IMG/VR virus record: IMGVR_UViG_3300013132_000206 | Location: 1-27,630 of that record | Reading direction: 5' to 3' (one strand) | DNA length: 27,630 bases | Origin: a virus | Shown here: positions 14,994 to 26,098 of the stretch, one piece after another | How positions within the stretch are numbered: position 1 is the first letter of the stretch | Layout of the letters: the number at the start of each line of letters is the position of its first letter | The notes under the pieces: generated by a model | Told to the model about the DNA's origin: nothing | Databases searched by the model: none | Seen by the model: the letters and a program-made list of their open reading frames with translations, nothing else | Position numbers and translations under genes: made by a program

Positions 14994-15713
14994 ATGCCGT
15001 TACCAAAGATTTCTACGCCAACGTATGAGTTGGAATTGCCTTCAACTGGAGAAACGATTCAATATAGACCATTTTTAGTTCGTGAAGAAAAGCTTCTTGT
15101 TCTTGCATTGGAATCTGAGAACATGAGGGAGATTACAACTGCAATCAAATCAGTTATCAAAAACTGTATTCTTTCAAAAGGAATCAAGATTGAAAGTCTG
15201 CCAACGTTTGATATCGAATATCTTTTCCTTAATATTCGTGGCAAGTCTGTTGGGGAAGAGATTGAAGTTAATGTAATTTGCCCCGATGATGAAGATATCA
15301 CAGTTCCTGTAACGATTTCTGTAGACGATATTAAAGTTGTAAAGAATAAAAATCATTCCAATCGAATCAAAGTAGATGATTTAATCATGATGGAGATGAA
15401 GTACCCATCATTGGATCAGTTTATTAAAAATAACTTTGATTTTTCTGGTGCAAATCTGATGGATCAATCTTTTGATCTCGTTGCATCATGTATTGATAAG
15501 ATTTATCAGGGCGATGAAGTTTGGACTTCGGCTGATGTGACTAAGAAAGATCTTTTAGATTTCCTTGATCAATTCAATGCAGCACAGTTCCAACAGATTG
15601 AGACATTCTTTGAAACAATGCCCAAATTGTCACATACGGTTAAAGTTAAGAATCCAAGCAGTGGTGTCGAGAGCGAAGTTGTTCTGGAGGGTTTGTCCAA
15701 TTTTTTCGCATAG
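14994..15713 (+). CDS. 26: Baseplate hub protein gp26
   Basis: T4 gp26 is needed for baseplate hub assembly. Clear family signature at the start: PLPKISTPTYELELPSTGETIQYRPFLVREEKLLVLALES (residues 2-41), then ITTAIKSVIKNCI and FDIEYLFLNIRGKSVGEEIEV (~72-92). The rest has a beta-like middle and a helical end (LLDFLDQFNAAQFQQIETFFETMP). Length 239 is close to T4's 208. Followed 11 bases later by a 54-residue gene, as expected for hub assembly genes. Confidence 0.92.
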   Translation: MPLPKISTPTYELELPSTGETIQYRPFLVREEKLLVLALESENMREITTAIKSVIKNCILSKGIKIESLPTFDIEYLFLNIRGKSVGEEIEVNVICPDDEDITVPVTISVDDIKVVKNKNHSNRIKVDDLIMMEMKYPSLDQFIKNNFDFSGANLMDQSFDLVASCIDKIYQGDEVWTSADVTKKDLLDFLDQFNAAQFQQIETFFETMPKLSHTVKVKNPSSGVESEVVLEGLSNFFA

Positions 15714-15724
15714 GCCTGGTCCAC

Positions 15725-15889
15725 ATGGATCTGGAATCCTATTACAAACTTAATTTTTCTTTGATTCAGTACCATAAATATTCATTAACTGAGATAGAAA
15801 ACATGATGCCCTGGGAAAGGGATATCTATGTTGCCTTACTACAACAACACTTAGACGAAGAAAGAGTTAAGCAGCAACAAAATGCGTGA
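15725..15889 (+). CDS. Small hub-assembly protein, gp51-like candidate, 54 aa
   Basis: ORF from ATG 15725 to TGA 15889, overlapping the next gene by 8 bases. The protein MDLESYYKLNFSLIQYHKYS then EIENMMPWERDIYVALLQQH is a helical, acidic small protein whose P-W-E-R-D-x-Y segment is common in short proteins that follow gp26 in T4-like phages, often named gp51 or tail assembly chaperone. T4 gp51 is much longer (249), so the name is uncertain. Confidence 0.68.
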   Translation: MDLESYYKLNFSLIQYHKYSLTEIENMMPWERDIYVALLQQHLDEERVKQQQNA

Positions 15890-17717
15890 CCAATTAGTTA
15901 AAGAAGCTATTGACGCTAGAATTCTAAGACTAATTGGTCTTGAGGAAACTTTTGATCTTGACTATGAGACATATCTTGTATTATTAAAAGAAGCGCAAGT
16001 TAAGGGAAAAAATACTTTACCAGCAGAAGAACAAGCAATTCTTGCAAACGAAAGAAAGAGAGTAAGAGGAAAGGTTGGTCGTTTTATACCAAAGGCAAAA
16101 ACAATCAACGTCAATAATATAACGTCCGTTGGAAGAGTAGGACAGAAACTTTTGCCTGCTGCAAAAGGTGTTGGTTCTGCTCCTATTGTAAAATCATTAG
16201 CGAGTATTGGTGCGATTGTCGAATCAATCTCGGAAAATCTAAGTGATCAAAGTAAAGATGATAAAAAAGAAGCAGAAGAAAATAGAAAAGATGAGGAAAA
16301 TAAGAGAAGATCAAAGAAAGAAGAATCATTAGAATCAAGTTCAAAAAAACTTGTAGCTGCTGCTAAAAAGTTGTTTGCACCTGTAAGAGGAATACTTGAT
16401 TCAATCTACAATTACTTATTCTATACTTTCCTTGGTAGAGGAATTAATGATGCATTGAATTGGTTAGCAGACCCCGCAAATAAAAATAAAGTTGCGGCGT
16501 TAGGTCAGTTTATTAATGATTTTTGGCCTTCTTTACTTGTTACCGCAGGATTATTTTTGACTCCTCTTGGTGGATTTATAAGAACTATTCTTTTTGAAAT
16601 TACAAAACTTGGACTTAGATTCCCATTAGTTGCAGCAGCTGCTTTGGGTGTTACTGCAGCTGGAGTTCTTAAAGGTAAAGCAGAAGAATCAAAAGAAAAA
16701 CAACTTAAAGAGTCTGGATATCTTGAAAAAGAAGCAAAAAGAACTGGAAAAAAACCAGAAGAAATAAAAAAAGAATTAAAAGACATTGAACAAAAGTCAG
16801 AATTTTTTAGAGGATTTAGTAATATTAACCAAATTGCATCTGGTGGACTTATTGATCAAAACACTGGTCTTAAAATTTCTGGAGCTGGAGCAGATACTCA
16901 ACTGACAGCGTTACAACCAGGCGAAGTTGTAATGAACCGTGCTGCTGTAAGAGCTGTTGGTGCTAATAATTTGCTTGGATTAAATCAAATGTTTGGTGGG
17001 CCCAATGCAAATAAGCCAAAGTTCACCAATAATATTCAATTTGCTCAGAATGGTGGTATGGTTGGCCAATTTATGAATTGGTGGAACAAAGGTAGAAATA
17101 TGAGAGTTCCAAATGAGAATACTGCAAAATTTGGTGGACTGAGACAGTATCTCCGAAAGATTCCTGATCCAACCACTTTATTTGGAGATGATGCATTACA
17201 AATAACAAGAGGTAATAAAGCATTTCAATCTGGAGCCACTGGATATCGTGGATGGAATCCATTCAAGGCATTCACACCAGAAATGGTAAGGACTGGACCA
17301 ACACCAGCAATTAGACAAGCGATAGAAAGACCTTTAAGAGCCGCTGCTCCGGTTTTAAGAGGTGCTATGCCAATTGCAAATTCGGCAATGTCATTACAAT
17401 TAGGTATGCAACTTCATAATATGATGCAGCAAAGAAATACCACCGTAAGAATGCAGCAATATGGATATGGAACTGTTGAAGATATGATGGTTGCTCCTGA
17501 ACGTTACGCAAAATTAAATCGTTCGACACCACCCACTCCTTCATTATCACCAGTGCCAAGAAAGAAAGTAAATATGATCACTCTTCCACCATCAATAGAA
17601 CAAGTACCTTCTACCACTCCTCAAAGAACAGGAGGATCTGAAGTCCCCTCATTCTCTGCAGTTGCTCCTGGCAATAGACGAATGGAAAATGCTCAAATCT
17701 ACGGAATAGTACCATAA
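15882..17717 (+). CDS. Large tail protein, tape-measure/hub type, 611 aa
   Basis: Similar in length to T4 gp29 (590), the hub protein that doubles as tape measure. Parts: helical N-terminus; charged coiled-coil-like stretch (residues ~119-155, Lys/Glu/Ser rich); the motif DSIYNYLFYTFLG at ~172-184; hydrophobic segments at ~207-240 and ~247-263 (FPLVAAAALGVTAAGVL), as in tape measures that enter the host membrane; a Gly-rich part with ALQPGEVVMNRAAVRAVG, a pattern typical of tape-measure C-termini; and a Pro-rich end. Position after gp26 and before the hydrolase supports it. Not proven to be gp29. Confidence 0.7.
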   Translation: MRDQLVKEAIDARILRLIGLEETFDLDYETYLVLLKEAQVKGKNTLPAEEQAILANERKRVRGKVGRFIPKAKTINVNNITSVGRVGQKLLPAAKGVGSAPIVKSLASIGAIVESISENLSDQSKDDKKEAEENRKDEENKRRSKKEESLESSSKKLVAAAKKLFAPVRGILDSIYNYLFYTFLGRGINDALNWLADPANKNKVAALGQFINDFWPSLLVTAGLFLTPLGGFIRTILFEITKLGLRFPLVAAAALGVTAAGVLKGKAEESKEKQLKESGYLEKEAKRTGKKPEEIKKELKDIEQKSEFFRGFSNINQIASGGLIDQNTGLKISGAGADTQLTALQPGEVVMNRAAVRAVGANNLLGLNQMFGGPNANKPKFTNNIQFAQNGGMVGQFMNWWNKGRNMRVPNENTAKFGGLRQYLRKIPDPTTLFGDDALQITRGNKAFQSGATGYRGWNPFKAFTPEMVRTGPTPAIRQAIERPLRAAAPVLRGAMPIANSAMSLQLGMQLHNMMQQRNTTVRMQQYGYGTVEDMMVAPERYAKLNRSTPPTPSLSPVPRKKVNMITLPPSIEQVPSTTPQRTGGSEVPSFSAVAPGNRRMENAQIYGIVP

Positions 17718-17721
17718 AATC

Positions 17722-20187
17722 ATGGCAATCAATCCACAAAAATTATTACCACCAGCAAAACTTTCCGCAGGCGAAAGAATGGCTGCTGCTTATGATAAAA
17801 AGATTGATGATATTCTAAATTTAAAAATCAAAAAGAAATTAATTAACGTCGATAAAGTTGTTAATACTACTAAAAAGGTAAAGGAAAAAACAAGAAAGCA
17901 AAAGAAAACCAGAAAAGAAAACGAAGAGAGAGAAAAAAAAGAAGGTAGATTGGAACAAAAGCAACCACAAGAAGCATCTAAATTAAATCTTCCTGGTCTA
18001 CCAAAAACTGGGTTTCTTGATACAATTCAAAATTTTCTTGGATATACATTTTTAGGTTATATTCTTTCAAATTATTCAAAGAATTTGCCTGCATTACAGG
18101 GAATTGCAAATATAATTCCTGCAGCAATGAATACTTTTAGTAATATTTTGATAGGGACTGTTAACTTCGCCGCAGGTATGATCGAAGGTGGATATAAATT
18201 TAAAAATGATCTTCGTCAAAAAGTAGAAGAACTTGGCGGTAAAGACGCTCAAAAAACATTTGATGATTTTACAAATGGTTTTAAAGACATGATCAATTCG
18301 ATCATGACTCTTGGACTATACAAACCAGATAAAGAAAAACCACCAATTCCACAGAAAAGTGCTGGCGGGTATGTTAAAAAAATGGCTCCTGGTGGTAATG
18401 TTACTAGAGAGAGTAGACCTGTTGGCGGGTCAGTTACCAGAAAAATACAAAAAGTAGAAACTAAAAAAACTCCAATCGTTTATCGCCAAATTAGTGATCC
18501 TGGAAGGGATATTGGCGGAAGAGATAACATTGAAAAGATTTTTCCATCTTCTCCAGATCCAAAATCACCTGGACCATTACAAACGCTATTATTCACTTCA
18601 AAAACTTTAGGGCAAGTTCCTCTTATTGGACCATTGATGGGTGCCGCAGTTGACATTGCGATGGGTCAAAGGCCAGATAAGAGAGTCTATCAGTCTTTTG
18701 GAGAGTCTTTAGCATCTTTAATGGGCCCAGGTATAGAATCTCAGTCAACTGGATCGGTAAACAATCTTATAACTGCTATCGCAACAATGGCAACGGGCGG
18801 CACAGTTACTAGAGAAATTGCCAAACGGATGACAGGTTTTGAAGAAGTCGCATCTTCTTTAGCAAGTTTATTTGAGTATAGTATTGAAAGTAGACTTGAT
18901 AAAATATTTTCTGAAATTTTAAGAACAAAACCTGTTGAAAAAGAACTTCCTCCAGGAGCGGGTGCTGTAAAAGTAGATAGTAGCAGTCCAGATTTTTGGT
19001 TGCTTGCTGTGGGAGCATTATTAGAAAATTCAGATCCACAAGGGGCTGCAGATGTTGCTCAAGCTATCTACAATAGAGTTGCTTCTCCTTCATGGCCCAA
19101 CAGTATCCGAGCAGTCATTATGGAAGGAAATGGAGGACAGTTTCAACCAGTACGTGACTATGGCACAATTGATGCTTGGAATTCAATTAAAGATAAAGAA
19201 TCTGCGGTTGATTTTATAAAAAGATATGGAAGAGGAAGAAATCAAAGTCAGTTAGAACAGGTAGCAGCAGCTTTACTTGATCCGAATCGTCAAAGATCTG
19301 CTGCGACTTTTGTTGGTCCAAGAGATAGTTTTAGAGCAGTTGCCTTTGAGGATGCAAACAATCATCTTGCAGATGATACGGAACAAAGAAGGCATGGTCA
19401 TGTTTTTGGATTTGAACCAAGAGGAGCTCAGATTGCAGCATTCCGTGCAGGAAAATTAAAACCTGCCGAGGTATCGCCATCAACTACAGGAACAGTAACT
19501 TCTTTATCTACGCCACTCACTGGCGAAAATGGAAGACTAAAACCATCACAATTAACTAGAGTTGGAACTTTATATGGCACAGTTGATTATCAAGACTGGT
19601 ATGGTAACGGAGCATACTTGAAGCATGATGCAGCAAAAGCTTTCCTTGAAGCAAAAGCACAGGCACAAAAAGAAGGAATTCAAATTCTTATTACGAGTGC
19701 ATATCGAAGTCTTGAACACCAGAAAGCACTTCAAGGAATTTATTCTGTTGTTGCACCACCAGGAACATCTAGGCATGGTGAAGGAACAGCATTAGATATT
19801 CAAACAGGAACTGCTGGTTATGATTGGTTTGTTAAAAATGGACCATCTTTTGGGTGGCATTATATGGCAATACCAAATGATCCAGTACACTTTGAATATC
19901 TTGGTAGGCCAACATTACAAACAAAAACTAAAAAATTAGGTGCAAGTGCATCAGGATCAATGGCGCCGCCGTCGGCAGAAGTTGCATCATCAAGACCAAA
20001 AATTATGGATGCTGCACAACAACTTGCTATGATGCCTTCATATGCTGAAGGTGGCGGGGATACGATCTTTTTAAAAGATCGTATTATATTAAAAGAAGTT
20101 CAAGGGCCTGAGACACCTCCACCAGCCTCCGTATCAAACATTGATTTTCCTGGAGTAAATAGTACAACACCATCGTTTATCGGATGA
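17722..20187 (+). CDS. Tail protein with SleB-like and VanY-like peptidoglycan hydrolase domains
   Basis: An 821-residue virion protein likely to open the cell wall during DNA injection. N-terminal ~100 residues are a Lys/Glu coiled coil; DTIQNFLGYTFLG at ~99-111 repeats a motif of the preceding protein; Gly-rich GGNVTR repeats follow. Residues ~420-576 resemble cell-wall hydrolase SleB/Hydrolase_2 (LLAVGALLENSDPQGAADVA, IYNRV, then FGFEPRG). Residues ~612-730 resemble VanY D-Ala-D-Ala carboxypeptidase: SAYRS, PPGTSRHGEGTALDI (zinc His/Asp), GWHYM, PVHFEYLG. Overlaps the hub gene by ATGA. Two hydrolase activities in one tail protein is unusual; activity is inferred. Confidence 0.85.
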   Translation: MAINPQKLLPPAKLSAGERMAAAYDKKIDDILNLKIKKKLINVDKVVNTTKKVKEKTRKQKKTRKENEEREKKEGRLEQKQPQEASKLNLPGLPKTGFLDTIQNFLGYTFLGYILSNYSKNLPALQGIANIIPAAMNTFSNILIGTVNFAAGMIEGGYKFKNDLRQKVEELGGKDAQKTFDDFTNGFKDMINSIMTLGLYKPDKEKPPIPQKSAGGYVKKMAPGGNVTRESRPVGGSVTRKIQKVETKKTPIVYRQISDPGRDIGGRDNIEKIFPSSPDPKSPGPLQTLLFTSKTLGQVPLIGPLMGAAVDIAMGQRPDKRVYQSFGESLASLMGPGIESQSTGSVNNLITAIATMATGGTVTREIAKRMTGFEEVASSLASLFEYSIESRLDKIFSEILRTKPVEKELPPGAGAVKVDSSSPDFWLLAVGALLENSDPQGAADVAQAIYNRVASPSWPNSIRAVIMEGNGGQFQPVRDYGTIDAWNSIKDKESAVDFIKRYGRGRNQSQLEQVAAALLDPNRQRSAATFVGPRDSFRAVAFEDANNHLADDTEQRRHGHVFGFEPRGAQIAAFRAGKLKPAEVSPSTTGTVTSLSTPLTGENGRLKPSQLTRVGTLYGTVDYQDWYGNGAYLKHDAAKAFLEAKAQAQKEGIQILITSAYRSLEHQKALQGIYSVVAPPGTSRHGEGTALDIQTGTAGYDWFVKNGPSFGWHYMAIPNDPVHFEYLGRPTLQTKTKKLGASASGSMAPPSAEVASSRPKIMDAAQQLAMMPSYAEGGGDTIFLKDRIILKEVQGPETPPPASVSNIDFPGVNSTTPSFIG

Positions 20188-21512
20188 CATATCAAACTCC
20201 CAATATTGCCGCAAAAGAATACGATATATCCAAGTTTGAAATTATTTCAAATCAAGGAAAGAAACTTGATGTTTCTTTAGGGTGCGTACAACTTCAATAT
20301 TATGAAAGCATTCTGGATAATACAATTCGGGTAAGTACTATATTAGTTGATGCTGGAGGAAGATTCGAGGGAGAGAGTGCCTCTGTCTTAGAAATGGGAG
20401 ATCTCAAATTGACGGGTGGAGAAGAAGTTACTCTTCTAATGGAAGACGGATACGGTCAAAAGTTAGAATTTTCAGGAAACAGTCAACTCAGAATTAAAGC
20501 AATTCGTGATGCCGTTCAAGAGAACGTATTAACATATATGATTGATTTGTGGTCTAAAGAATGTTTGGATAATGAACTTGTAGAAACTAGAGTTACAAGA
20601 AGATATGATGGAAAGATTTCTGACTCTGTTAGTTCTATACTTAGAAATGCACTGAAAACTCCAAAATTTATTGACACCGACGAGACAGAAAATCTTTTTA
20701 GTTTCCTTGGCAGATCAGAAAAACCATTTTACAAATGCGCTTGGTTAGCGAAAAGATCAATTCCTACAGGATCCACTGGAAAAAGTGCTGGATATTTGTT
20801 CTTTGAAACTGCAGATGGATTTAAGTTTAAGTCTATTGATAAATTATTTGACCAAAAATATGAAAATGGCCAAAAATATAAAAGAAAATTAATTTATACT
20901 CGTACTCCAGATCTTCCTGATAATTATGATGCTAAAATATTGAACTATTCTTATGATAGTTCAATTGATGTTGAAAAAGCATTGGTTACTGGTTCTTTAT
21001 TCCGAACAGAATTAAGAGCAACAAATTTTTATGATAATAAACCTAGAAGAAACGAAACATCACACACCAATCAAGAAGATGAAGACAAGATGGGTGGTAA
21101 AGAGCATCCAACGATTGCAAAAGATTTAGACTTACAAAATAAATCTACTCGGGTTGTTGTTCGATATGATAAAAAAGGAGTTTTGCCTCCTGGAAACAAT
21201 TTACAAGAACAATTGCAAAAATCAAAAGATAATGATTATGATATAGATGCGATTATTCGCCAATCGGCAATGAGATATAATCAACTATTCACTCAAAAAA
21301 TGTCAATGACAATTGCTGGAGACTTTGGACTTAGAGCTGGAGATATTGTATATTGCGATTTCCCAGAAATGACAATCAACAGTTTAAAATCTGTTAGCCA
21401 AAGAAAAGGTGGTCTATATATGATAGTAGATTTATCTCATTTGATAACAACAAATAAAACTTTTACCAGACTCAATTTGGTAAGAGAATCTATAGGAAGA
21501 AAACCTTTCTAA
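20184..21512 (+). CDS. 27: gp27-like baseplate hub protein
   Basis: gp27 forms the trimeric hub ring that holds gp5. The 442-residue protein is beta-rich, with an N-terminal YDISKFEIISNQGKKLDVSLGCVQLQYYE, an exposed middle Asp/Asn/Lys segment (DNKPRRNETSHTNQEDEDKMGG) and a C-terminal DFGLRAGDIVYCDFP ... GGLYMIVDLSHLI ... FTRLNLVRES. The last block is the usual end of gp27/gpD hub proteins. Length exceeds T4 gp27 (391). It precedes CP12 and gp5, so the hub order gp27-gp5 is broken only by the small metabolic gene. Confidence 0.7.
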   Translation: MTYQTPNIAAKEYDISKFEIISNQGKKLDVSLGCVQLQYYESILDNTIRVSTILVDAGGRFEGESASVLEMGDLKLTGGEEVTLLMEDGYGQKLEFSGNSQLRIKAIRDAVQENVLTYMIDLWSKECLDNELVETRVTRRYDGKISDSVSSILRNALKTPKFIDTDETENLFSFLGRSEKPFYKCAWLAKRSIPTGSTGKSAGYLFFETADGFKFKSIDKLFDQKYENGQKYKRKLIYTRTPDLPDNYDAKILNYSYDSSIDVEKALVTGSLFRTELRATNFYDNKPRRNETSHTNQEDEDKMGGKEHPTIAKDLDLQNKSTRVVVRYDKKGVLPPGNNLQEQLQKSKDNDYDIDAIIRQSAMRYNQLFTQKMSMTIAGDFGLRAGDIVYCDFPEMTINSLKSVSQRKGGLYMIVDLSHLITTNKTFTRLNLVRESIGRKPF

Positions 21513-21521
21513 TTTAAGACC

Positions 21522-21737
21522 ATGAGCAAAACACTTCAACAACATATCAATGATGATCGGGACGAATTAGATAATCCCGTAATTAGTTCACAACGTCGTC
21601 GTCATATTGAAACTGAACTTGATGCATTAGAACAGTATCAGGTTAATCATCCTGACGAGGATCATGATCCAAATTCACTTGAATTATTCTGCGATACTCA
21701 CCCCGATGCTCTCGAATGTAGAGTATATGATGACTGA
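21522..21737 (+). CDS. cp12: CP12-like Calvin-cycle inhibitor
   Basis: CP12 is a small disordered protein that locks GAPDH and phosphoribulokinase in an inactive complex in the dark; phage versions are proposed to slow the Calvin cycle and favour the pentose phosphate pathway. In 71 residues, the C-terminal block NSLELFCDTHPDALECRVYDD (residues 51-71) closely matches the CP12 C-terminal GAPDH-binding loop, with Cys57 and Cys66 spaced by eight residues as in CP12. A middle ELDALEQYQ takes the place of the AWD-x-VEEL core. The N-terminal Cys pair is absent, so only one redox disulfide could form; some cyanobacterial CP12s also lack it. It lies between gp27-like and gp5, with gp5 overlapping its stop. 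Confidence 0.88.
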   Translation: MSKTLQQHINDDRDELDNPVISSQRRRHIETELDALEQYQVNHPDEDHDPNSLELFCDTHPDALECRVYDD

Positions 21738-24064
21738 TGCAAGGAACTCTATTTAATCAAGAAAACGCAGCCCTCCAACCAATGTATTTTTGGTTTGGGC
21801 AAATTGTTGACGATTCGACCTGGAAGGATAACGAATTAAGACAAAAATGGAATGATCCTCAGCAGATTCCTGGTTGGGGTTCTAGATTTCGTGTGCGTAT
21901 TTTCGGAAGAGATATTGGGGATGTAGATAATTCTCGTCTGGATGTGGCAGAGTGCATTTATCCAGTCACTGCAGGATCTGGCCACGCAGCAAGTTACCAG
22001 ACAGCAAATTTAAGAAAAGGTGCATATGTTATCGGTTTCTATCGTGATGGAATTGATAGAGAAGATCCTATTATTCTTGGATGTTTAGGAAATAACGATC
22101 AGACACAATTATCACAGACAATTCCACTCAAACCATTTCAACCCCATAGTGGATTTGTTGGAGAAGGTGTATCTTATTATTCAATGCCGCCTGGCGGAAG
22201 TCCTGCTATTCCCAACCAAAACCCTTCGGAATCGAACACAGGATCGGCTACAGCAAGGAATAACATTGCAGACCAACAACAAAAGGATGATGGCCAGCAA
22301 AAGAATGCAATTCAATCAAAGTGCGATCCTGCAGAATTATCTGCAATGCAGAAACAAATTAAACAATTAATAAAAGACATTGAGGGTGCTAAAAAACAAG
22401 TTAAGGATTGGAAGAATACTGTTTTAAAACCAATTAATTACAAAGGACAGCAGATGTCCGTATCTGATTATATTCAGATGAAGATTAATGCCGCATCAGC
22501 AGACATTAGTAGATTTTTTAAAAAAATTATTGATGGCACAAGAAAATTTGTAACTGAAAAAATCAATAATACAATGAAGGATACTTATTATCTTTTGTAT
22601 CCAAATGAAAGACCAAATTTAAAGAAAGCAGCTGAACAAGTTAACGATACAATTTCTTGCTTATTCAATAAGATCATTTCCAATCTTTTAAAGATGATTG
22701 GAAAGGCACTGCTGTCTATGGCAGATCAAGTTATCAATACTGCAGACTGCCTGATTAATAATTTTATTGGTGGATTGCTTGGTAAACTGGTTGGGTTGAT
22801 TACATCAATCCTTAATAACAGTCTGAGAGCGGTTGAAGCATTGATTGGTGGTGCATTTGATATTGGTGGACAAATCTTAGGTTTTATTAGTCAACTGCTT
22901 GGATTCTTTACTTGTGAAGAAAAACCATCTTGTGGCAACTTAAAAGAATGGAGTATCTGGGATGGTGCAGGGCCCAATCTAAATTTAGATTTTACCAGTT
23001 TATTCAATACTGTTCAAACGTTTGCTTCAACTGCACAACAAGTAGTCAATCCTGATAATTTTAATTTTGATTTAGATTTTTCCGATATTTTCCAAGATAG
23101 TTGCAACTTAGGCCCAATTCTTTGTGGCCCTCCAAGTGTTGTATTCTATGGTGGCGGCGGCACTGGAGCATCTGCGAACGCAATTATCAGTGCAGCAGGC
23201 GATATCTTAGGTATTGATATTATTTCTACAGGATATAATTATGTAAGTCCACCATATGTTCGATTTGAAGATGCTTGCGGAAAGGGATCTGGTGCTGTTG
23301 GAACAGTTGCAATCGGTGCAGTATCACAACAGTCAAATGGCACCTATGCATCAGATCCAAATGGAACAACAAATGGTGTTACTCAAGTTGTAATTCAGCA
23401 ATCTGGCACTGGGTATCTTTCATCTCCAGATGGAGACCTTGGTGGGGATGGAAGAGTATGGGCTAATAGATGTCAATCAATTATTCATCGTGCAAATGGT
23501 AAATGGGATACACCATATGATCCAGATGAAATCATGCAAATTTTTAAGGGTGATACAGTTCAACTTGCAGGGCAACCTTCATATGTTGCACTTGAAGATC
23601 AATCAATTACTGCTCCTCAGTGTCCTCCAACCAGAAATCAAGTTGGAAATGAATTTGTAACATCACAACAACCAAGTTCTACAACTGCTCAGTATCCAGT
23701 TATTCTTTACATGTGTGATGTGAAGATCGTCAATCCTGGTGTTGCATACAGTGATGCAGATAAAATTATAGTTTCTCCAAGCAATGGTGCAATATTAGAA
23801 CCAATGTTTGGCCCATTTGGATCATTAGAAGATGTGAAGATTGTATCTGCTGGTATTGGTTTCACCGAAAGACCAAACATTTACATTCAGACAGAAACAG
23901 GATATAATGCTGAGATAGTTCCTGTATTCTGCGTAAATAGAATTGGAGATGTTCCTGAAGAAGATCTTATTTCAACTCCTGGTGGTGGCAAAACTACTGG
24001 ATCTCCAAATTCTCCAGTTGGAGAACAAATCATTCATGTTGTCGATTGTGTAGGTAAAGTTTAA
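21737..24064 (+). CDS. 5: Baseplate hub gp5 (OB-fold), without lysozyme domain
   Basis: Residues ~20-130 form the gp5 OB-fold (GSRFRVRIFGRDIGD, then NLRKGAYVIGFYRDGIDREDPIILGCLGNN). No T4-lysozyme domain follows. Instead there is a Gln/Lys-rich linker, a long helical part with hydrophobic helices (~285-385, GGLLGKLVGLITSILNN, ILGFISQLLGFF), and a C-terminal part with several repeats of the form I-x-S-x-G-x-x-Y/F-x-x-x-P near residues 492, 552, 664 and 702. Total 775 residues versus 575 in T4. The start overlaps the CP12 stop. The spike beta-helix is in the next gene. Confidence 0.85.
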   Translation: MQGTLFNQENAALQPMYFWFGQIVDDSTWKDNELRQKWNDPQQIPGWGSRFRVRIFGRDIGDVDNSRLDVAECIYPVTAGSGHAASYQTANLRKGAYVIGFYRDGIDREDPIILGCLGNNDQTQLSQTIPLKPFQPHSGFVGEGVSYYSMPPGGSPAIPNQNPSESNTGSATARNNIADQQQKDDGQQKNAIQSKCDPAELSAMQKQIKQLIKDIEGAKKQVKDWKNTVLKPINYKGQQMSVSDYIQMKINAASADISRFFKKIIDGTRKFVTEKINNTMKDTYYLLYPNERPNLKKAAEQVNDTISCLFNKIISNLLKMIGKALLSMADQVINTADCLINNFIGGLLGKLVGLITSILNNSLRAVEALIGGAFDIGGQILGFISQLLGFFTCEEKPSCGNLKEWSIWDGAGPNLNLDFTSLFNTVQTFASTAQQVVNPDNFNFDLDFSDIFQDSCNLGPILCGPPSVVFYGGGGTGASANAIISAAGDILGIDIISTGYNYVSPPYVRFEDACGKGSGAVGTVAIGAVSQQSNGTYASDPNGTTNGVTQVVIQQSGTGYLSSPDGDLGGDGRVWANRCQSIIHRANGKWDTPYDPDEIMQIFKGDTVQLAGQPSYVALEDQSITAPQCPPTRNQVGNEFVTSQQPSSTTAQYPVILYMCDVKIVNPGVAYSDADKIIVSPSNGAILEPMFGPFGSLEDVKIVSAGIGFTERPNIYIQTETGYNAEIVPVFCVNRIGDVPEEDLISTPGGGKTTGSPNSPVGEQIIHVVDCVGKV

Positions 24065-24662: not shown

Positions 24663-25442
24663 ATGCAATTTGATGATATCGCTGTAGGAAAGCGACTCTT
24701 TGTTGGTGAAGGAAAACCAGAAGTATTAGGAAGAGGGCCAACAGAAATTCGTGGTTCTTCTTATATTGAAGGGCCAATGATTGTTGGAACACCACCACCA
24801 GTCTTAACTGCAAGTCTGATGGTAGGCCCAGCAACCAATTCAGATTTACTTACACCACCGATTGTTCCTGGTGCATTATGCACTGGTGTGAACAATCCAT
24901 ACTCACTTGCGGTTGATGGATCATCTGCATTCTTAGGTGTGATCGATACATCTGCCAATGTAAATGTTGGCGGCAATCTGATTGCTCAAGCAGAGGTCAT
25001 GTCTCGCTGCGGAACTCATATTCTTTCTGCCAAAAAGAACTTTGATATTCCACACCCATCCAAAGAAGGATGGAGACTGAGACACACCTGCCCAGAAGCC
25101 CCATACAATGATGTTTATATTCGTGGGCGAGTTACAAACGAAAACACTATCAAACTTCCAGAATACTGGAAAGATTTTGTAGACTTTAGAACAATCACAG
25201 TACAACTGACACCAATTGGTTCACACCAAGATGTCATTGTAAAGAGAGTTAATGACGATGCAATTCATTTACAGTCAAACTATAGTATGCCTATCGACTG
25301 CTTCTATCACATCTTTGCAGAACGAAAAGATGGTGAAGCATTGATCTCAGAGTATCAAGGCCAAACACCAGCAGATTATCCTGGCGATAATGGTCAGTAT
25401 TCAATTTCTGGTTATCATTACGATGTTAAGGAGAAAAACTGA
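24663..25442 (+). CDS. Fibre-like structural protein with C-terminal domain shared with the next gene
   Basis: 259 residues. The N-terminal ~115 residues are Gly/Pro/Val-rich strands (RGSSYIEGPMIVGTPPPV, FLGVIDTSANVNVGGNLIAQAE). From ~123 the C-terminal domain reads KKNFDIPHPSKEGWRLRHTC, ITVQLTPIGSHQDV and CFYHIFAERKDGE; the same domain follows in the next gene. The F-D-I-x-H-P-x-x-x-G-x-x-L-x-H segment is widespread at the ends of phage and giant-virus fibre proteins. It carries PEAPYND where the paralogue has LEGPESA, so the likely functional EGP turn is lost here. Confidence 0.7.
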   Translation: MQFDDIAVGKRLFVGEGKPEVLGRGPTEIRGSSYIEGPMIVGTPPPVLTASLMVGPATNSDLLTPPIVPGALCTGVNNPYSLAVDGSSAFLGVIDTSANVNVGGNLIAQAEVMSRCGTHILSAKKNFDIPHPSKEGWRLRHTCPEAPYNDVYIRGRVTNENTIKLPEYWKDFVDFRTITVQLTPIGSHQDVIVKRVNDDAIHLQSNYSMPIDCFYHIFAERKDGEALISEYQGQTPADYPGDNGQYSISGYHYDVKEKN

Positions 25443-26098
25443 TGGAAGAGTTAGTAACAAGACAAATTGGCAATAAGAGTTGCGGAGGATCTACATCTGG
25501 TACTCAAGATGATGCATTGGATTTTATTGCAAAAAGCACGACAGGTGATACTGATTATCCTGCAGATGCATGTCCACGCTATGTTCATGGTGGTGCTCAG
25601 ATTAATACGATCCAAGTTAATACTGCAATCACTGGAAGTCCAACATGCACATTGGGCACTGTGAATGCATCTACGGTCACTGCAACAGAAGTGTCTGCAT
25701 CTGGCATTACACTTACATCCAGAAAAGCATTTGATATTCAGCACCCAACTAAAAAAGGATGGAGATTACGTCACATTTGTTTAGAAGGCCCAGAGTCTGC
25801 TGTATATTATCGTGGGAGAATGAAAGATACGAATGTCATTCATCTTCCAGACTATTGGTTTGCATTGGTAGATCCAGAGACAATTACAATCAATTTAACT
25901 CCAATTGGTTCTTATCAGGAATTGTATGTTGAAAAAATTTCTTGGGGTAAAAACATCATCGTCAAAAATAGAGAAGGTGGGCCCATACATTGTCATTATG
26001 TAGTTTATGGTGAGAGAGTTGATGGTGAGAAACTGATTGTAGAATATGAGGGTGACCAGTATCCTGGTGACAATTCCCAATATTCCATCAACAAATGA
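25442..26098 (+). CDS. Fibre-like structural protein, paralogue of preceding gene
   Basis: 218 residues, coupled to the preceding gene by TGATG. A Thr/Ser/Ala-rich N-terminal ~90 residues (STTGDTDYPADACPRYVHGG, VNASTVTATEVSASGITL) is followed from ~93 by RKAFDIQHPTKKGWRLRHIC, LEGPESAVYYRGRM, ITINLTPIGSYQELYVEKI and HCHYVVYGERVDGEKLIVEYEGD, matching the previous protein's C-terminus. Both end with YPGDN-x-QYSI. Likely a tail tip or short fibre protein at the baseplate; receptor-binding is possible but unproven. Confidence 0.72.
   Translation: MEELVTRQIGNKSCGGSTSGTQDDALDFIAKSTTGDTDYPADACPRYVHGGAQINTIQVNTAITGSPTCTLGTVNASTVTATEVSASGITLTSRKAFDIQHPTKKGWRLRHICLEGPESAVYYRGRMKDTNVIHLPDYWFALVDPETITINLTPIGSYQELYVEKISWGKNIIVKNREGGPIHCHYVVYGERVDGEKLIVEYEGDQYPGDNSQYSINK

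Follow-up and report, generated by a model that had tools for sequence, protein, structure and literature searches.

How do T4-like cyanophages pierce the wall of their hosts? In phage T4, a wall-cutting lysozyme is carried by gp5, in the hub region of the contractile tail. How T4-like cyanophages manage without this tail lysozyme is unstated in the papers that we searched, although few viruses are as abundant as the cyanophages of seas and fresh waters. The question is raised here by a 27,630-nt virus record (IMGVR_UViG_3300013132_000206, positions 1 to 27,630; hereafter, the window), for which the original prediction was that a single tail protein carries two different peptidoglycan-hydrolase domains, and that gp5 lacks the T4 lysozyme domain.

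Gene B and its genomic setting

The relevant features of the window are the following (window positions and strand):

14994..15713, +: gp26 homologue (baseplate hub; PF12322, E 3e-73), upstream anchor of the slot
15882..17717, +: gene A, a 611-aa neighbour with tape-measure-like sequence features; some relatives carry hydrolase domains
17722..20187, +: gene B, tail/hub-region protein with two predicted peptidoglycan-hydrolase domains; 821 aa, ATG start; relatives L003-L009
17722..18930, +: N-terminal frame of gene B (aa 1-403), conserved and helical, hydrophobic segment at ~aa 96-160; apparently paralogous in part to gene A
18935..19909, +: exchangeable enzyme block of gene B; no alignable DNA in close relatives L101 and L023, both flanks align
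19018..19452, +: predicted SleB/Hydrolase_2 domain (aa 433-577); E435 at 19024; N451-R452
19510..19905, +: predicted M15 (VanY/LdcB-like) metallopeptidase domain (aa 597-728); H685 at 19774, D692 at 19795, H723 at 19888
19921..20187, +: C-terminal frame of gene B, where alignment resumes in relatives with other enzyme pairs
20184..21512, +: tail/hub protein (phrog_350), downstream anchor of the slot
21737..24064, +: gp5 homologue (phrog_1922, 'baseplate hub subunit and tail lysozyme', E 8e-78)

The gene order in the window is thus gp26, gene A, gene B, phrog_350 hub protein, CP12, gp5 homologue. A fixed slot of the form gp26-gp51-[A]-[B]-hub protein-(CP12)-gp5 is present in T4-like cyanophages, and was found in all Kyanoviridae isolates inspected; those with the same gene order include S-SM2, S-SCSM1, DSL-LC03, ACG-2014g, B23, SynMITS9220M01, S-SSM7, S-RIM8 and P-TIM68, among others. 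The database labels of A and B in these isolates vary (hypothetical, endolysin, transglycosylase, tape measure, carboxypeptidase). Two further features of the region were observed: (i) the gene between the hub protein and gp5 (window 21522-21737) encodes a CP12 carbon-metabolism regulator, a gene common in Kyanoviridae, and (ii) the adjacent proteins at 24663-25442 and 25442-26098 match the same PHROG families (17490, 28536), and look like a tandem duplication.

In line with what had been predicted for gp5, a profile search for Phage_lysozyme (PF00959) gave no match in the gp5 homologue, nor in the remainder of the 27.6-kb window; a PDB sequence search with the gp5 homologue returned nothing useful. 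No hydrolase domain was detected in the window's gene A, either by Pfam/profile searches or with the family HMMs described below. Weak similarity between genes A and B is found in a helical stretch (33% over 67 residues, E 2e-7), which suggests that the two are paralogues. The tape-measure likeness of gene B consists of its hydrophobic helices, this putative paralogy with gene A, and the names given to it in databases.

The two predicted hydrolase domains of gene B lie within its enzyme block. Pfam matches were obtained for Hydrolase_2 (PF07486; aa 439-507, E 3.7e-8, 34.4 bits against a cut-off of 27) and VanY (PF02557; aa 632-699, E 4.3e-11, 43.2 bits against a cut-off of 25), with both scores exceeding Pfam's curated gathering cut-offs. 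Family HMMs built during the analysis widen these domains to aa 433-577 and 597-717, close to the ranges first proposed for a SleB/Hydrolase_2 domain (~420-576) and a VanY-type domain (~612-730) in the same open reading frame. Zinc-ligand motifs had also been predicted for the latter, and are borne out by the motif SRHGEGTALD...DPVHFEY: none of the 25 M15 homologues departs from H685, D692 or H723, the putative ligands of the HxxxxxxD...H pattern, and R662 and G688 are likewise conserved in all 25. Ahead of the final histidine is an acidic position, D720, occupied by D in 14/25 and by E in 7/25 of these homologues. In the SleB-type domain, N451 and R452 are invariant in 29/29 homologues, and the candidate catalytic residue, E435, sits at the expected SleB place (E in 23/29 homologues as aligned; the rest may be misaligned).

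Structure modelling gives a similar picture. An AlphaFold model of aa 411-735, based on an alignment of 33 sequences, has a mean pLDDT of 87.4 and comprises two separate domains. The SleB part of the model aligns to the solved SleB structure 4f55 (Z 10.9, 123 residues, rmsd 3.1) and to 4fet_A (Z 10.6). The M15 part aligns to LdcB/VanY structures (4jid_B, Z 12.3, 125 residues, rmsd 3.4; 4mph, Z 11.9), and also resembles the phage endopeptidase Ply500 (2vo9, Z 9.3). The full-length model (10 sequences) is poor, with a pLDDT of 41.6, and the fold and position of the frame are not argued from it. Profile matches, modelled fold and conserved catalytic residues agree that gene B joins two predicted domains of different peptidoglycan-hydrolase families. 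For the M15 domain, 'carboxypeptidase' is a Pfam name only: endopeptidases such as Ply500 also belong to the M15 fold, and neither sequence nor fold decides between the two specificities.

Enzyme families in the slot and their pairing

With the hub protein and gp26 as search anchors, 132 loci containing a gene B were gathered. Clustering left 94 B proteins that are non-redundant at 90%, two of which are fragments (hence, 92 were used), and 97 non-redundant A proteins. The Pfam families recognised in B are VanY, Phage_lysozyme2, Hydrolase_2, DPBB_1, M23, Glucosaminidase, SLT, SLT_3 and M15_3, and those in A include GH19, Hydrolase_2, Phage_lysozyme2 and Glucosaminidase. Across the 92 B proteins, at least six predicted glycan-cutting families (SleB, Phage_lysozyme2, GH73, lambda-lysozyme-like, SLT_3, DPBB) and two or three predicted peptide-cutting families (M15, M23, LAS-like) interchange in the enzyme block. 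Nine other contigs share the architecture of the window's gene B, at 41-76% identity. Among cultured isolates, Pfam recognises GH73 + M15_3 in gene B of S-RIM2 and Phage_lysozyme + M23 in that of ACG-2014f, as well as M23 in the slot of S-RIM32 and Amidase_2 in that of ACG-2014a; gene B of B23 carries Phage_lysozyme2 + M23. The ACG-2014f gene (L187:5978-7936) places a GH24 Phage_lysozyme—the family of T4 gp5—with M23 in the slot.

The family HMMs were trained on the slot proteins themselves, and independent support for them comes from the Pfam calls. They gave no match to reversed A and B proteins, and among the 2,699 ORFs of the fetched loci their matches are restricted to A and B (two being unassigned copies of A or B). 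The lambda-lysozyme-like group ('LysX') was recognised from its match to 1am7 and 3d3d in a profile search (E about 5e-7). The LAS-like metallopeptidase family was defined in this analysis by a motif of the type HxxGxAxD...HxHVxV, and has partial PDB support. It occurs as a second domain in gene B of seven loci (L172, L174, L100, L171, L133, L089, L127) and in gene A of L074, with the motif in one of two orders: HYxGxAxD...HVHVAF, or NYHDHIAF...HYSGLAFD. Judging by the motif, the zinc site would be circularly permuted in the second order. A PDB sequence search with this motif-reversed group gave no match and Pfam only a weak one, to Hedgehog/M15_4; for this reason, counts are given below with and without the LAS-like family. 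BLAST-linkage clustering of whole enzyme blocks was uninformative, with everything chained into one group.

The strictest calls, made with HMMs that had Pfam-recognised families and the lambda-lysozyme-like group as their seeds, identify two enzymes in 34 B proteins. By predicted class, every one of the 34 is a combination of a glycan and a peptide cutter; two enzymes of the same class never occur together. Nine family pairings are represented, and the peptide cutter comes first in seven of the proteins, so that position alone does not explain the complementary pairing. On a rough hand count, the chance of drawing nine pairings that are all complementary from the 21 possible is ~3e-5, a figure to be read in the light of shared descent, which makes the counts non-independent. 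When the LAS-like family is added, 56/56 two-enzyme B proteins are complementary, and 15 of the 18 possible pairings are found. About a third of B proteins show a single recognised enzyme, with a glycan cutter alone in about 25 and a peptide cutter alone in 7. At six of the eight loci where A and B have one recognised enzyme each, the two are of opposite classes.

Exchange of the enzyme block

The exchange can be followed directly in comparisons of DNA. Locus L101 encodes a gp26 96% identical and a CP12 98% identical to those of the window; the flanks of the enzyme block align, and the block itself is unalignable between 18934 and 19910. A second pair of loci, L050 and L051, is 99% identical across 18 kb (98.9% over the 7 kb upstream to aa 477, and 99.3% over the 11.7 kb downstream from aa 836), and differs in the enzyme block only: Phage_lysozyme2 in L050 and SleB + M23 in L051. 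Following the Phage_lysozyme2 domain, gene B of L050 contains ~180 aa of no recognised family (aa ~650-835) that may be another enzyme. Replacement can also be confined to one domain; between L010 and L011, the glycan domain alone has been replaced, with the M15 peptidase 89% identical.

Mapped onto a tree of the hub protein (87 tips; a quick tree with some long branches), glycan type requires at least 38 changes, compared with a minimum of 6 and a shuffled mean of 54.6. Counted over pairs of loci, which are non-independent, different arrangements are seen in 1/8 pairs at 99-100% hub-gene identity (in addition to 38 pairs with identical gene B), 2/5 at 95-99%, 3/7 at 90-95%, and 11/14 at 85-90%.

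Exchange within species was not seen in the isolate sets available: 45 ACG-2014f and over 50 S-RIM2 records each keep one gene B, at 98-100% identity. This constancy in one-species sets shows that, over short times, exchange does not occur everywhere. Gene B of S-RIM2 contains, upstream of its GH73 module, a ~190-base block (nt 534-725; L185:7282-7473) that is conserved, at 86-95% identity, in dozens of Kyanoviridae records with no other match to this gene B. Judged by this pattern of conservation, the block is a possible recombination anchor.

A candidate entry lysin and its relation to known systems

We consider it probable that gene B encodes a virion-associated entry lysin of a T4-like cyanophage, whose enzyme block is an exchangeable cassette of one glycan cutter and one peptide cutter. 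As the tail lysin of a Kyanoviridae-type phage, the protein would be anchored by its N- and C-terminal frames in the baseplate hub or tail tube, beside gene A, the hub protein and gp5. This location is inferred from gene order and from homologues in virions. At entry, contraction of the tail would deliver the enzyme block to the periplasm, where the glycan strand would be the target of the SleB-type domain, and the peptide stem or cross-bridge that of the M15 domain. Together, the two kinds of cut would open a local hole in the peptidoglycan, replacing the job of the T4 gp5 lysozyme domain that is missing here. Through recombination at the block edges, as the comparisons show, close relatives carry different cutter pairs, and two-enzyme members retain one cutter of each class.

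The tail assignment made in the original prediction is supported by the run of baseplate-hub genes and by virion studies of two other phages. The virion proteome of S-SCSM1, obtained by mass spectrometry, includes the homologues of genes A and B, ORF213 (GH73) and ORF214 (D-Ala-D-Ala carboxypeptidase) (PMC9602691), and the database record of this phage marks gene B as a virion protein. The authors of that study regarded the two hydrolases as unlikely to be structural, and perhaps left in suspension after purification (PMC9602691). In S-CREM2, ORF208 and ORF209 were detected by virion mass spectrometry with 73 and 71 unique peptides, and lie directly before the central-spike genes (PMC10665884); by their position in the gene order, these two ORFs appear to occupy the A/B slot.

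Several database records call A and B 'endolysin', and the 27.6-kb fragment shows no other lysozyme, as might be expected if gene B were a late enzyme that bursts the host rather than one that acts at entry. We think this unlikely, given that gene B has large structural frames and lies between baseplate-hub genes, and that its homologues are present in purified virions. Moreover, a separate small GH24 lysozyme gene, which is likely the endolysin, is found elsewhere in the record in 8/13 metagenomic relatives searched, as well as in DSL-LC03. A virion protein could nonetheless be inactive, since tail proteins can retain hydrolase folds purely for structure. That both domains of gene B are such relics is very unlikely, considering the invariance of the zinc ligands and motif arginine on the one hand and of the SleB N-R pair on the other; swaps among unrelated enzyme families of matching function also argue for selection on activity.

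The exchange pattern itself might be an artefact of metagenome assembly, in which different phages were joined inside a conserved gene. Most of the swapped pairs are contigs from metagenomes, and chimeras arise where flanks are nearly identical. Yet every ORF is intact and in frame, the window's architecture recurs in the nine other contigs, and the cultured isolates S-RIM2, ACG-2014f and B23 differ from each other as well; any chimera would, in any case, still combine two natural variants. An assembly origin is therefore highly improbable.

Viewed as an entry lysin, gene B is like T4 gp5 in that its slot would place a wall-cutting enzyme in the hub region of a T4-like tail. It differs in that (i) the predicted enzymes are not part of gp5 but encoded by a gene upstream of it, (ii) two unrelated families are represented, by one enzyme each, and (iii) the cyanophage gp5 homologue has no detectable lysozyme domain. 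Two catalytic domains in one virion protein are also found in phi29 gp13 and in staphylococcal virion-associated hydrolases (e.g., HydH5), such that the two-hydrolase tail design originally proposed, which is supported here, is not unique. The domain families of those proteins are other than those of gene B, and their hosts are thick-walled; nothing comparable to this exchange slot is known to us from a T4-like hub gene. In mycobacteriophages, Lysin A proteins are combinatorial, modular lysins that join a peptidase with a glycosidase or amidase, and their domain exchange outpaces that of the rest of the genome (PMC3314691). These are endolysins of the lysis cassette, whereas the gene B modules lie in a virion tail gene, in phages of hosts with a Gram-negative-type wall. 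Similar to the tape-measure proteins of TM4, T5 (pb2) and enterococcal phages (PMC1796659, PMC10194240), gene B encodes a large tail protein with hydrophobic stretches and predicted hydrolase domains. Wall-hydrolase tape measures usually carry one hydrolase type, compared with two in gene B, for which a tape-measure role is a candidate function; in an enterococcal survey, lytic transglycosylases were the only hydrolases in tape-measure proteins (PMC10194240). Two-enzyme virion lysins and combinatorial endolysins are thus already known, and what is apparently new is an exchange slot inside one T4-like tail gene. A slot of this kind, for complementary enzyme pairs in a T4-like cyanophage tail gene, is undescribed in the open-access papers searched.

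The slot offers a candidate answer to the question of how these phages pierce the wall, together with a catalogue of natural two-enzyme combinations; the labels 'endolysin' and 'hypothetical protein' that its genes bear in databases could be corrected. With it, one could test directly if host range depends in part on the wall-piercing step, and if a glycan cutter must be paired with a peptide cutter. The enzyme pair may be adapted to the wall chemistry of the host. More tentatively, and with the balance tilted slightly against it, gene B could be a plug-in site at which recombination occurs in the conserved flanks, selection favours the presence of both enzyme classes, and the choice of pair tunes host-specific entry. 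If so, the enzyme pair would constitute a layer of host range beyond the tail fibres.
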